33,451 nt of DNA from Planctomycetia bacterium (lineage in GTDB: Bacteria; Planctomycetota; Planctomycetia; Pirellulales; UBA1268), in contig RFVE01000007.1 in NCBI GenBank assembly GCA_009922585.1, positions 1-33,451 of the forward strand, written 5' to 3'. Made by a program: the position numbers and the translations under genes. How positions within the stretch are numbered: position 1 is the first letter of the stretch; each line of letters starts with the position of its first letter. This document shows, piece after piece, positions 272 through 32,799 of this stretch. Below the pieces are notes generated by a model. That model saw only the letters and a program-made list of their open reading frames with translations, did not search any database and was not told the DNA's origin.

Positions 272-1015
272 TCAGGCCATAGGCCGTGCCGCCTTCGTCA
301 CCGTGGCAATGTAGGCGTACCGTCGGTGGATCGACTCGAACTGCACCTCGGCATCACCTGTGTCTCCGAGAGCTGCGATCGCCGCGTGTAGTTCGGGCCG
401 GTAATGAACGTGGAACAGTGAAAGCCACTTTTTCAGCCCGGCAGCGAAAACACCGGGCAGGTCGGCCTGGTCCCAAAAGTCAACGATCAGCAGTTGCCCT
501 CCCGGCTTGAGGTTTGCAAAGGCTGCCTCGAGGGCGCCTGGCCAGGTCGGCACCATGGAGAGGCAGTACGAGAAAAAAATGGTGTCGAAGGGCTCGTCGC
601 GGCCGAACATGCGTCCAGCGTCAAGTTGCTCGGCCAGTCCCTGCCGCAGGACGATCGGTCGATTTTCCCCGCGAGGAAGCCCAGCCCGGGCAACACTGCG
701 AGACGCTGTTTCAAGCATTTCGTGGGATGCGTCGAGCCCATAAAGCTCTCCGCAGAACGGACGACCGCCCAGTTTGATTAGATTGCGGGCGGTTCCGCAG
801 CCGACCTCCAGAGTGGCGGTTTCAGGACCAGTTACCACCCGTTCCAGCAATCGGTCTCGGCCCAGCAGGTAATAACGACGCGTGAAATCGTAGATGTGCC
901 GGGTGAACCGGTACATGCTGTCCATTGCCGCGGCCTGGTCAGGGGTACCAGTCGGACGATTGTTCGACGATGACACCGGCGGCCGGGATGTTTTACCGGC
1001 AGCAGGATCGGTCAT
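272..1015 (-). CDS. btaB: SAM-dependent methyltransferase, BtaB-like (diacylglyceryl-homoserine N-methyltransferase)
   Basis: 247 aa; class I MTase motif LEVGCGTARNL; RHIYDFTRRYYLLGRDRL and SYCLSMVPTW resemble BtaB; ATGA overlap with the upstream btaA reading frame. Confidence 0.82.
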   Translation of the reverse strand: MTDPAAGKTSRPPVSSSNNRPTGTPDQAAAMDSMYRFTRHIYDFTRRYYLLGRDRLLERVVTGPETATLEVGCGTARNLIKLGGRPFCGELYGLDASHEMLETASRSVARAGLPRGENRPIVLRQGLAEQLDAGRMFGRDEPFDTIFFSYCLSMVPTWPGALEAAFANLKPGGQLLIVDFWDQADLPGVFAAGLKKWLSLFHVHYRPELHAAIAALGDTGDAEVQFESIHRRYAYIATVTKAARPMA

Positions 1016-2173
1016 GATGCCTCCGTCGAGCCCGTCTTTTCGTAGAGGTGAAACATCCCGTAGATCGCAGAGCGATCCTTGAGGTGCAGCTTTTGCGAGC
1101 GTTCGACCTGGTAGGAGAACTTGGCCCGTGTTTCCGGCGCGAGGGCCTCTTCGACCGGTGATTTCTCGCCCGCGGTTCTGAAGATCACCTTGGCGTCTTC
1201 ACTGCCCACCTGAGCGATGAGGCTCCAGAGTTCCTCAATCACGGCCGGGGGCATCCAGTCCTGACTGTCGAGCAGGATGAATCCGTTGAGCGAGCCAGGG
1301 GCAGCCGTCTTCAGATAGTCGCCCAGCGAGGCAACATGGGTCTCCACCCGGTCTACGGTTCGGGCCGCAGGCCAGCCGTCGAATCCGTTCGCGGTAGGTG
1401 TCGAACAGTTTCTGGCCGTTTCCTCCTGATTCCTCGAGCATGGCTGCGTGTTGGCTGGGCGGGATCCCGAGGCTGTAGACTGCCACGGGCTGGCGGCCCA
1501 TCCAGCGGACCAGCCGGTTGTTGAACAGTGGACCGTAGAACTCGTCGAACAGCTGTTTCTGTTCTTCGAGCGAACGAGCGGCAAGCAGGCGGGCGGGATC
1601 TCGTTTCATCCGTCGAGCCAGGCCATGCACAACCCTGAAAAACTGGCCCAACTTCGCCTGGTCGTAGAGGCCGCTCTTGAAGTAGCCGATTCGCTTGGGG
1701 CCAAATTTTCGGCCCGGCCAGTCGCTCGATTCCCAGAACGATCGGGTCAGCGGGTCAAGCTGGTCGCGTAGGTATTTGCGGTAGAGGGCGAGGTTGTCCT
1801 TGTGCTGGCCGTAGCCAAAGAAATTGTAGAACGACTCATAATCGGGCAGGTATTTGACAGCGGCCAGTTTAAGCCGCGTTAGCGACATATGATTTGAGTT
1901 GAGATCGACCGCGACAATTCGCTTTGGTTCGTGAACCAGATAGTTCAGCACGTTGCAGCCACCGCTGGAGATGGTCAGCAGGCTAGACTCGGGCCCAAGT
2001 TCAAGAGCCTCGGCATCAACCCGAGGATCCTCCCAGATCTGGTTGTAGACAAAGCCTCGGAACCAGAGGGTGAACATCCGCTCGAGAAGGCCCCGACGGC
2101 TGGCCAGACGGTGGTGGTGAACGGCTTTTTTGAGATTCGTGTCGGTATCGAGCCCGGCGGTGACGGTCGTCAT
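1012..2173 (-). CDS. btaA: BtaA-like S-adenosylmethionine:diacylglycerol 3-amino-3-carboxypropyltransferase (DUF3419), apparently disrupted: N-terminal part in ORF 1235..2173, C-terminal part in ORF 1012..1584
   Basis: N-part has FVYNQIWEDPRVD, LLTISSGGCNVLNYL, VAVDLNSNHMSLTRLK; C-part has VDRVETHVASLGDYL, LLDSQDWMPPAVIEELW, VIFRTA, LKDRSAIYGMFHLY. Frame changes at ~1356-1364 and the segment expected between RRLACG and VDRVETH is absent. Confidence 0.8.
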
Positions 2174-3932: not shown

Positions 3933-5465
3933 ATGCCAAGTTCTGCCCCAGCCGCCCCAGTCTGCCCGCCTCGCCGAAAGGCTGGTCGCAACGAGACAGC
4001 CGCGATCGATGACCCCGTCCGTCTTTACCTATTGCAGATGGGCGGCATTCCCCTGCTCGATCGTGACGCCGAGGTGGCCAGCTCGCGACGAATCGAGCAC
4101 TGGCGGTGGCGATTCCGCCGGGAATTGCTCAGCAACGACTTGGTATTACAGACAGCCGTCAGGCTGCTCGAACGGGTGCAGGCCGGGACTATCCGACTGG
4201 ACCGCACGCTTGAGGTGGCCGTTACCAACACCGATGAGAAGCGGCAACTGCTCAAAAGGCTGGAGCCGAACCTGAAGACACTGCACCGGCTGATTGCCGA
4301 GAACCGGCAGCTTTTTCGAGAGGCGACCTCAAAGTCGACGCCGGTGGCAGTCCGCCGTCGAACCTGGCGGCGGCTCGTGAGGCAGCGGAACAAGGCGGTG
4401 CGGCTGGTTGAGGAGATGCGACTTCGAATCCAGCGGCTCGATCCCTTGCTCAAGCAGTTGCGGGGGCTGGCCGGCCGGCTCAAGCAGGTTGATCGGCAGT
4501 CGCAGCGACGGCTGCTCATCGGAATGGGGGAAAGCCGACGGACCCTGGCCCGGAGGCTTGAACGGCTGGCAACCTACGAGCGGCAGTACGATGCTGCCAA
4601 ACGTGAGCTGGCCGCCGGTAATCTGCGACTGGTGATCTCAATTGCCAAGCGGTACCGAAACCGTGGCCTGACGTTTCTCGACCTGATCCAGGAGGGAAAT
4701 GCGGGCCTGATGCGAGCGGTCGACAAGTTTGAACATGCCCGCGGCTTCAAGTTCTCGACCTACGCCACCTGGTGGATCCGACAGGCGATCACTCGGGCGA
4801 TTGCTGATCAGGGCCGCACCATCCGGATGCCGGTCCACATGGTTGATGCCATGGGAAAACTGCGGAACCTGACCCGAGACTTCCTGCAAGAGAACGGTCG
4901 TGAGCCAACGGTCGAGGAGTTGGCGTCACGGTCCGGTATGCCGCTTGAGGAAGTGTGTTGCATCGAGCGGATGACCCACCGCATGGTCTCGCTCGATCAG
5001 CCGCTCGGTGACAGTGAGGAAAATGCTCCCGGCGAATTCGTCCGCGATACGCGGGTCGACGATCCGTTGCGGGGCATTAACCAGACCGCATTGAAGGCCT
5101 CGATCGGCAAAGTACTCTCCGCCCTCTCAAGCCGTGAGCGGGAGATCTTGCAACTCCGCTTCGGCTTGACTGATGGCTACTGTTACACCCTCGAGGAGGT
5201 TGGCAGCATCTTCAGTGTCACCCGGGAACGGGTCAGGCAGATTGAGGCAAAGGCAGTCGAGAAGCTCCGCCAGCCGGGCTTTCACACCGATCTGGCGGGC
5301 TTCGTCGATGAAGGACTATTGGAAAAGGTCGGATCGCTCGGTCCACACCGCAGCCGGGGCACAATTGATACCCGGTCCCGGCCGTCACGGCCTCCCGCAG
5401 CTACTACGCCGACTTCGCCTCGTCGAGCGCCTGCTGCAGTTTCTCCTTCGGCTGGACGCCCATAA
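3933..5465 (+). CDS. RNA polymerase sigma-70 family factor (primary/group 2 type)
   Basis: [17 protein letters not shown] (region 1.2); [75 protein letters not shown] (region 2); [15 protein letters not shown]...[28 protein letters not shown] (region 4); SD-like ggagg before ATG. Confidence 0.95.
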
Positions 5466-26655: not shown

Positions 26656-28020
26656 TCATTCGCCTCGGAGTTTGAGGCCTCGCTCGGCGAGGCGTTCCCG
26701 CACCTCGTTCAGGCTGGTGACACCGAAGTTTTTGCATTCCATCAGGTCTTCGCCGGTTCGCCGCACCAGTTCACCGATTGTGGTGATCCCAAGTTTGGTG
26801 GTGCACTTGCGAGCTCGTACGGAAAGATTGAGTTCTGTGACTGGGAGGCCGTGAATCTCGGTCTCTTCTTCGATTGGTTCAGCAAAAGCCTGCTGTGGTT
26901 CGATTGCGGTTGTTGGTTCCGCGAATTGGCCAAGGCTCAACCCCTTGCTCGCAAGCATCTCCTTGATCTCAACAAGGCTCGTCTCGCCAAAGTTCTTGCT
27001 GGCAAGCACTTCTGCTTCGCTGGTTCGAGCGAGATCGCCGAGCGTCTGGATGCCCATTTTGGCCAGACAGTTGCGACTGCGGACAGAGAGCTCGAAGTCA
27101 CTGACCGGCAGTACCATGATCTGTTCCAGCCGATCCCGCTGACGCTGCTCCTGTTCGTCAAGCAGCCTGTCGCCGGAGGCGGTCGAGTCTTTCATGAAGA
27201 GCCGAGCTCGGGCGACAGCCTCATCACGGCCCGGGGCATCAAGGGGCAGGCCGTCGAGAATCCTTCGGTAACAATCTTGAGCCTTCGAAAACTCGTCACG
27301 ATCCTCGTAAAGAAGCCCAAGATTGATCAATGCTCCGACCGTTGCAGGATACCTTTGCAATGACCGCTGGTAGCATTCGATCGCCTCGTCGTCGTTCCCC
27401 ATTCTGTCGTGGAGCACGCCGAGGCAGAAAAGCGCCAGTGGTTCTCCCGGATCGACTGCAACAGCTTTTTCAAGCACTGCGAACACCGTTTCGACTGGGC
27501 TGCCCGATTCGACCCCAACGGCTCCACGGGCAGCAAGCAGTTCTGCTGAATCAGTTTCTTCACTGCCTGCGGCGTCAAGCACTTCGGCTGCCGCCTCCAA
27601 TTGGCCGGCCGCACGCAGCGTGTTGGCAATCGCGGCCGTGCAGGCTGCCGCCGGATAGCCAGCAGAACGGGCCGCCTCAAAGGATGCCCGGGCCTCAGCG
27701 CTGCTGCCCAGCGCAGCCTGCGCGAGGCCGAGAGCAAACAGCGACAGCGCCGAGCCGTCGCCCGACTTCAGGGCAGCCGCTGCCTCGCTGCTTCGGCCGA
27801 GCAGATAGAGACCGACACCCAGCCTGACCGACGCAGCTGGGCTGCGTTCAGCCGACGACTGAAGATCTTGGACCGTCAGCCTCAGTTCCCGATGGGTTGT
27901 CGGGCTTGTCCCGAGCGAGTCAGCGATAGCCCGAACGTCATCGGGTCCGAATGGCCCACTGGCGGCGAGCAGTTCGCGTACATCAATGGTGGCTGGAGGG
28001 GAGGAGGCTGAAGCTTGCAT
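26656..28020 (-). CDS. TPR-repeat protein with two tandem RNA polymerase alpha-subunit C-terminal-like domains
   Basis: TPR: FCLGVLHDRMGNDDEAIECYQRSLQRYPATVGALINLGLLYEDRDEFSKAQDCYRRIL; alpha-CTD 1: VSDFELSVRSRNCLAKMGIQTLGDLARTSEAEVLASKNFGETSLVEIKEMLASKGLSL; alpha-CTD 2: VTELNLSVRARKCTTKLGITTIGELVRRTGEDLMECKNFGVTSLNEVRERLAERGLKL. Confidence 0.9.
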   Translation of the reverse strand: MQASASSPPATIDVRELLAASGPFGPDDVRAIADSLGTSPTTHRELRLTVQDLQSSAERSPAASVRLGVGLYLLGRSSEAAAALKSGDGSALSLFALGLAQAALGSSAEARASFEAARSAGYPAAACTAAIANTLRAAGQLEAAAEVLDAAGSEETDSAELLAARGAVGVESGSPVETVFAVLEKAVAVDPGEPLALFCLGVLHDRMGNDDEAIECYQRSLQRYPATVGALINLGLLYEDRDEFSKAQDCYRRILDGLPLDAPGRDEAVARARLFMKDSTASGDRLLDEQEQRQRDRLEQIMVLPVSDFELSVRSRNCLAKMGIQTLGDLARTSEAEVLASKNFGETSLVEIKEMLASKGLSLGQFAEPTTAIEPQQAFAEPIEEETEIHGLPVTELNLSVRARKCTTKLGITTIGELVRRTGEDLMECKNFGVTSLNEVRERLAERGLKLRGE

Positions 28021-31626: not shown

Positions 31627-31778
31627 TTCGGGTTGTCTGTCGGCTGAGACAACCGCTTGTCGGATCGTCAGCGGACGGCCCTCCCCGCCCGGTGGTGCAG
31701 CCGGACAGAGCAGATGTGACTGCCCGGGAGACCGACTACGAGACCGCGGCGAAGGATCGCGCTGCCGCCGGAGAGGTG

Positions 31779-32799
31779 ATGCGAGAAGAACTCGATAGCA
31801 AGCTCGCACGGTTCGAGGAACTTGAGCAGCAACTTGCTGATCCGGCTGTGCAGGCCGATTCGCAGCGGATGTCGGCGGTGGCCCGCGAGCATGGCAGCCT
31901 TGCTCGAATGGCTCGTCGCTACCGTGACTTTCTGACAGTCGAACGGGAAATTGCCGAGCACGCAGAGATGGCTGCTGGCGACGATGCCGACCTACGGGAG
32001 TTGGCTGAGGCGGAACTGCCGGAACTTCGCAGCCGTCGGGATTCGGAGTGGGACGCTCTGCTTGATGCCTGTCTTGAGGACCCGGATGCCGACCGCTCGC
32101 GGTGCATCATGGAACTCCGTGCTGGCACCGGTGGTGACGAGGCGGCCCTGTTCGTCCGTGATCTGTTCGAGATGTATCGCCGCTATGCCGCAGAGATCGG
32201 CTGGGATATTGAGGTGATGGACGCCAATCCGACTGAACTTGGTGGTTTCAAAGAGTTGGTGATTGCGGTTTCAGGGGGAGACGTTTTTCGGCGGCTACAA
32301 TATGAAAGTGGTGGGCATCGCGTGCAGCGGGTGCCTGACACCGAGGCCAAGGGGAGGGTACACACTTCGGCAGCCACCGTGGCGGTACTGCCGGAGCCGG
32401 AGGATGTTGAGGTCACCATCTCACCGGATGAATACCGGAAGGATCTGTTCTGTGCCAGCGGCCCCGGGGGGCAGCACGTGAACAAGACCACCTCGGCTGT
32501 TCGGCTCACCCATCTCGAGACCGGCATCGTGGTGCAGTGCCAGGATGAGAAAAGTCAACACACGGCAGCGACAGATTGAACATGACAAGCGGGCCAGCGA
32601 ACGTCGTGGGCTGGTTGGCTCGGGGGACCGCAGCCAGCGGATTCGAACCTATAACTTCCCCCAAAATCGGCTCAGCGACCATCGGCTGAACCAGAACTTC
32701 AACCTCGATCAGATTCTCGCTGGTCGGCTTGGAATGGTGCTCGACGCCATGGAGGAACGGGTGCGGCAGGAGCGGCGGGGCGGGCTCGTCGCAGGCTGA
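31779..32799 (+). CDS. prfA: Peptide chain release factor 1, apparently frameshifted with an internal deletion near 32559-32563
   Basis: Frame 1 to 32579: [90 protein letters not shown]. Frame 2 to 32799: [33 protein letters not shown]...[10 protein letters not shown]. The KNKAKAMxVL-type block between them is missing. Confidence 0.93.

Follow-up and report, generated by a model that had tools for sequence, protein, structure and literature searches.

The btaA gene of the planctomycete draft genome investigated here lacks, as assembled, an internal stretch of its coding sequence together with its reading frame; this lesion very likely represents a deletion produced by misassembly, real loss of the gene being the less likely reading. 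The block of residues that is absent was conserved in every relative examined, and the same assembly carries lesions of like type in further genes, presumably indispensable ones among them. The window (the whole stretch of 33,451 nucleotides that was analysed) is contig C557 of a 3.38-Mb genome in 616 contigs (89.9% complete, 2.2% contamination); the related records used for comparison are planctomycete MAGs, several of which are labelled Pirellulales or Planctomycetaceae.

Table 1. Features of the btaA-btaB locus and frame-broken genes of the same assembly (positions refer to the window unless another locus is named)
Feature	Position	Strand	Supporting observation
btaA, intact 5' part, 270 codons, ATG to RRLACG	1364..2173	-	83-86% identity to congeners; PF11899, 214 bits
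btaA, junction, 7 bases (CCGAACC) replacing 120 nt / 40 residues	1357..1363	-	40 residues in 79/79 one-ORF relatives; DNA comparison
btaA, 3' part, +1 frame, VDRVETH... to TGA	1012..1356	-	73% identity to congeners; PF11899, 72 bits
Methyltransferase gene in btaB position, open, ATGA overlap with btaA	272..1015	-	Methyltransferase Pfam matches; 71-75% identity to congeners, same position
prfA (release factor 1)	31761..32799	+	Frame-breaking deletion, net -47 nt at ~32551-32561, RF-1 domain
guaA	L216 1364-2238 (G000:C580)		Broken, -64 nt
MMPL-family transporter gene	L220 6597-9181 (G000:C600)		Broken, -217 nt
S1-domain protein gene	L262 7966-9665 (G000:C601)		Broken, -64 nt

Structure of the btaA-btaB locus

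As assembled, btaA spans positions 2173 to 1012 of the minus strand and is split over two frames. The 5' frame runs from the ATG at 2173 to ...YRERIRRLACG, with GGC (1366-1364) as its last intact codon, and continues as nonsense up to the stop at 1237-1235; its 270 intact codons are collinear with those of the relatives. The 3' part, VDRVETHVASLGDYL...SAIYGMFHLYEKTGSTEAS, has an open +1 frame that extends from GTA (1356-1354), where it starts with VDRVETH, to the TGA at 1014-1012. Seven unmatched bases, CCGAACC (1363-1357), stand between the two parts. The initial annotation had proposed that btaA lost an internal segment plus the frame at a boundary of 1356-1364; the junction found coincides with this boundary, and the loss was borne out to the base. 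The C-terminal frame had also been regarded as the genuine end of btaA, in agreement with the overlap of its TGA with the btaB start codon at 1015 (ATGA).

Both pieces match the PF11899/DUF3419 profile in the correct order and above its curated cut-off of 28.2 bits (5' piece: 214 bits over profile positions 4-255; 3' piece: 71.8 bits over positions 271-385), so that this comparison of the two ORFs upheld the earlier identification of the gene as btaA; given the identities of both pieces to the congeners (Table 1), the resemblance is not due to chance. BtaA (S-adenosylmethionine:diacylglycerol 3-amino-3-carboxypropyltransferase) has been described for bacteria together with BtaB (Riekhof et al. 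2005, cited in PMC10685587). As in the known bacterial BtaA-BtaB, the pieces match the family in order and btaB follows directly with the ATGA overlap (methyltransferase gene at 1015-272), a gene order that is the same in the congeners. Unlike known BtaA, the window gene is without 40 conserved residues and extends over two frames: the single uninterrupted frame with a DNYFxWQxFGRxYD...LPxYL block that characterizes PF11899 members is broken at 1364/1356, whereas all examined relatives have the block.

Between RRLACG and VDRVETH, exactly 40 residues (120 nt) were present in 79 of 79 distinct relatives with a one-ORF BtaA, a set that extends from the congeners out to records with the labels Verrucomicrobia, Acidobacteria and proteobacteria; with 7 bases in place of the 120 nt, the net loss amounts to 113 nt. 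The block was also present in those relatives that were left out of this count (contig end or a different lesion), and homologues naturally without it were sought among the fetched relatives and none was found. The earlier statement that the family-conserved block is encoded in no frame was confirmed for the window and for every contig of the assembly, which likewise contained no second PF11899 copy; searches of the assembly for another btaA copy, or for a small contig with the absent block, gave no match. In a planctomycete MAG from Lac Pavin (L055 2680-4191, same genome as L018), btaA contains a different internal frame-breaking deletion located further downstream, between VIDELW and ARELH, and retains the block that is missing from the window; this deletion, too, may stem from faulty assembly.

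Within the block, 11 positions were invariant across an alignment of 51 sequences (F271, N276, Y277, F278, W280, Q281, Y287, D288, P296, Y298, L299). A search by sequence found no solved structure of a BtaA relative; the AlphaFold model of the BtaA of one congener was confident (mean pLDDT 88.7), and fold comparison of BtaA revealed weak similarity to SAM-dependent methyltransferases (best E 1.5e-3). In the congener model, the block covers helix 277-284 and most of helix 301-313, both inside the confident core. In its assembled form, the protein would very probably have no activity.

The join probably does not correspond to a single clean excision, since it fits either a 110-nt loss with a further codon gone or an excess of 7 bases. 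In the DNA comparison (ATC CGT TCC GTC GTT GAC in the congener G009 versus C CGA ACC GTA GAC in the window), the seven junction bases would be matched best by the last part of the absent block with one codon dropped. Apart from the junction, btaA contains no other stop or frame break, and both of its parts as well as btaB are open. The differences from the closest congener fall mostly on third codon positions in both parts (34/22/117 at first, second and third positions over 270 codons of the 5' part; 25/12/56 over 114 codons of the 3' part). The further decay or relaxed selection expected of a pseudogene was thus not found in btaA, although a very recent loss would look alike; in consequence, the lesion is either recent or artificial.

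Frame breaks elsewhere in the assembly

The occurrence of frame breaks was surveyed by tblastn in 670 kb of this genome and 603 kb of three congeners, a scope of about one fifth of the genome with correspondingly small counts. Internal frame-breaking deletions of 47-217 nt between conserved flanks were present in 5 of the 74 genes that could be compared in this assembly, namely btaA (-113), prfA (-47), guaA (-64), an S1-domain protein gene (-64) and an MMPL transporter gene (-217), as opposed to none of 97 comparable genes of the congeners (scans of 71 and 26 genes); one G009 row listed in the survey lies beyond the conserved part of argG, on the upstream side. Frame-breaking indels were in excess relative to the related assemblies, as expected of breaks caused by assembly, with p = 0.014 in Fisher's exact test (0.032 against G009 alone). 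These values serve as a guide and not as a strict test, since the comparison sets share members: genes used as query in one scan are the subject in its reciprocal. Small frame shifts of -8, -11 and +1 nt (L152, L216, L259) were not counted, being small and in some cases near contig ends, and a possible ABC-transporter break (L156, -89) was dropped at a stricter identity threshold. The genes were assigned to families by profile and the lesion sites were aligned at the DNA level: the five deletion junctions share little or no sequence, so that the usual collapse of repeats is not supported as the cause.

The genes prfA (RF1) and guaA (GMP synthase) should, by general knowledge, be indispensable to the cell, and prfA can serve as an internal control. 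The broken genes are the sole copies in the assembly; the other release-factor match, on C224, scores like the second match of the congeners, which is taken to be RF2. The prfA gene, directly followed by prmC in the window, has its full length in a single frame in 7 of 9 congeners; guaA is uninterrupted in every case where a whole copy was found. RF1 is required for reading TAG, and in this genome TAG is the stop codon of 21 of 76 supported genes. RF1 is therefore needed by this organism, and the idea that prfA is truly broken because RF1 was lost along with the use of TAG was rejected, TAG being a common stop here. Programmed frameshifting is a known feature of prfB, where it occurs close to the start of the gene; as an explanation of the prfA lesion it was dismissed, since residues are missing and the congeners' prfA is encoded in one frame. 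Lesions in single-copy genes that a cell should not lose, the pattern that breaks caused by assembly would leave, are thus found in both prfA and guaA, and it is not credible that a free-living bacterium really had RF1 and GMP synthase disrupted simultaneously.

Origin of the btaA lesion

A single cause, the omission of 50-200 bases at some of the joins made in assembly, would account for all five lesions, and the recurrence of the same lesion type in prfA, guaA, the S1-domain protein gene and the MMPL transporter gene favours misassembly for btaA as well; we infer that the lesions originated in the assembly rather than in the cell. False frameshifts and pseudogenes in draft assemblies are a known class of error. 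The breaks resemble such cases in that they are scattered over unrelated genes, including presumably indispensable ones, that are otherwise undecayed; they differ from most familiar draft errors, i.e. single-base homopolymer errors, in being deletions of 47-217 nt. On this reading, the locus would be a btaA-btaB operon of the ordinary kind in a Pirellulales-type planctomycete, with damage to btaA introduced when the fragmented draft was assembled, the 113-nt stretch having presumably been omitted where sequence pieces were joined. In the organism itself, btaA is most likely of full length; its product is predicted to move the 3-amino-3-carboxypropyl group of S-adenosylmethionine to diacylglycerol, and the resulting diacylglyceryl-homoserine would be methylated by BtaB to DGTS. 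The earlier suggestion that betaine-lipid synthesis is disrupted is therefore probably wrong, considering the like deletions in the four other genes.

Alternatively, a 113-nt deletion that is fixed or common in the lineage might have turned btaA into a real, recent pseudogene, with BtaA abolished, diacylglyceryl-homoserine no longer formed and BtaB left without substrate. The lesion does take out the 11 invariant residues along with the frame in the only btaA copy of the assembly, the gene was not found in three incomplete congeners and may hence be dispensable, and the MAG from Lac Pavin also carries a frame-breaking btaA deletion; against this stand the same lesion type in prfA and guaA and the lack of secondary decay in btaA or btaB, which make such a pseudogene unlikely. 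One real lesion could nevertheless lie among artefacts, and there is a slight chance that a single planctomycete lineage has very recently lost BtaA while keeping btaB, betaine lipids having been given up and a remnant of the operon persisting; if true, this would amount to a modest, lineage-specific change in lipids. That a minority variant or chimeric molecule entered the consensus, most cells having an intact btaA, would be in accordance with a draft of 616 contigs with some contamination and with the unclean junction, but would require at least five independent occurrences and is very improbable. Least probable by far is a working, shortened BtaA made by ribosomal frameshifting: the two open frames overlap and one +1 shift would join them, yet every one of the 79 homologues has the 40 residues, the block contributes invariant positions and two helices to the modeled core, and no recognised shift-prone motif was seen by eye. 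Under the preferred reading of a misassembly, the locus is mainly a warning that claims of gene loss drawn from this assembly (of betaine-lipid synthesis and, nominally, of RF1 and GMP synthase) need support from reads.

Other genes in the window

The predicted protein encoded at 26656-28020 (minus strand) carries TPR-like repeats and, after these, two stretches matching RNA polymerase alpha profiles in their C-terminal part; it has counterparts of 76-79% identity in congeners and is no plain rpoA product. An RpoD-like sigma-70 factor of 510 aa is encoded at 3933-5465 (plus strand). Regions on the further contigs C57, C84 and C213 resemble this factor, which points to several RpoD-like factors in the genome.
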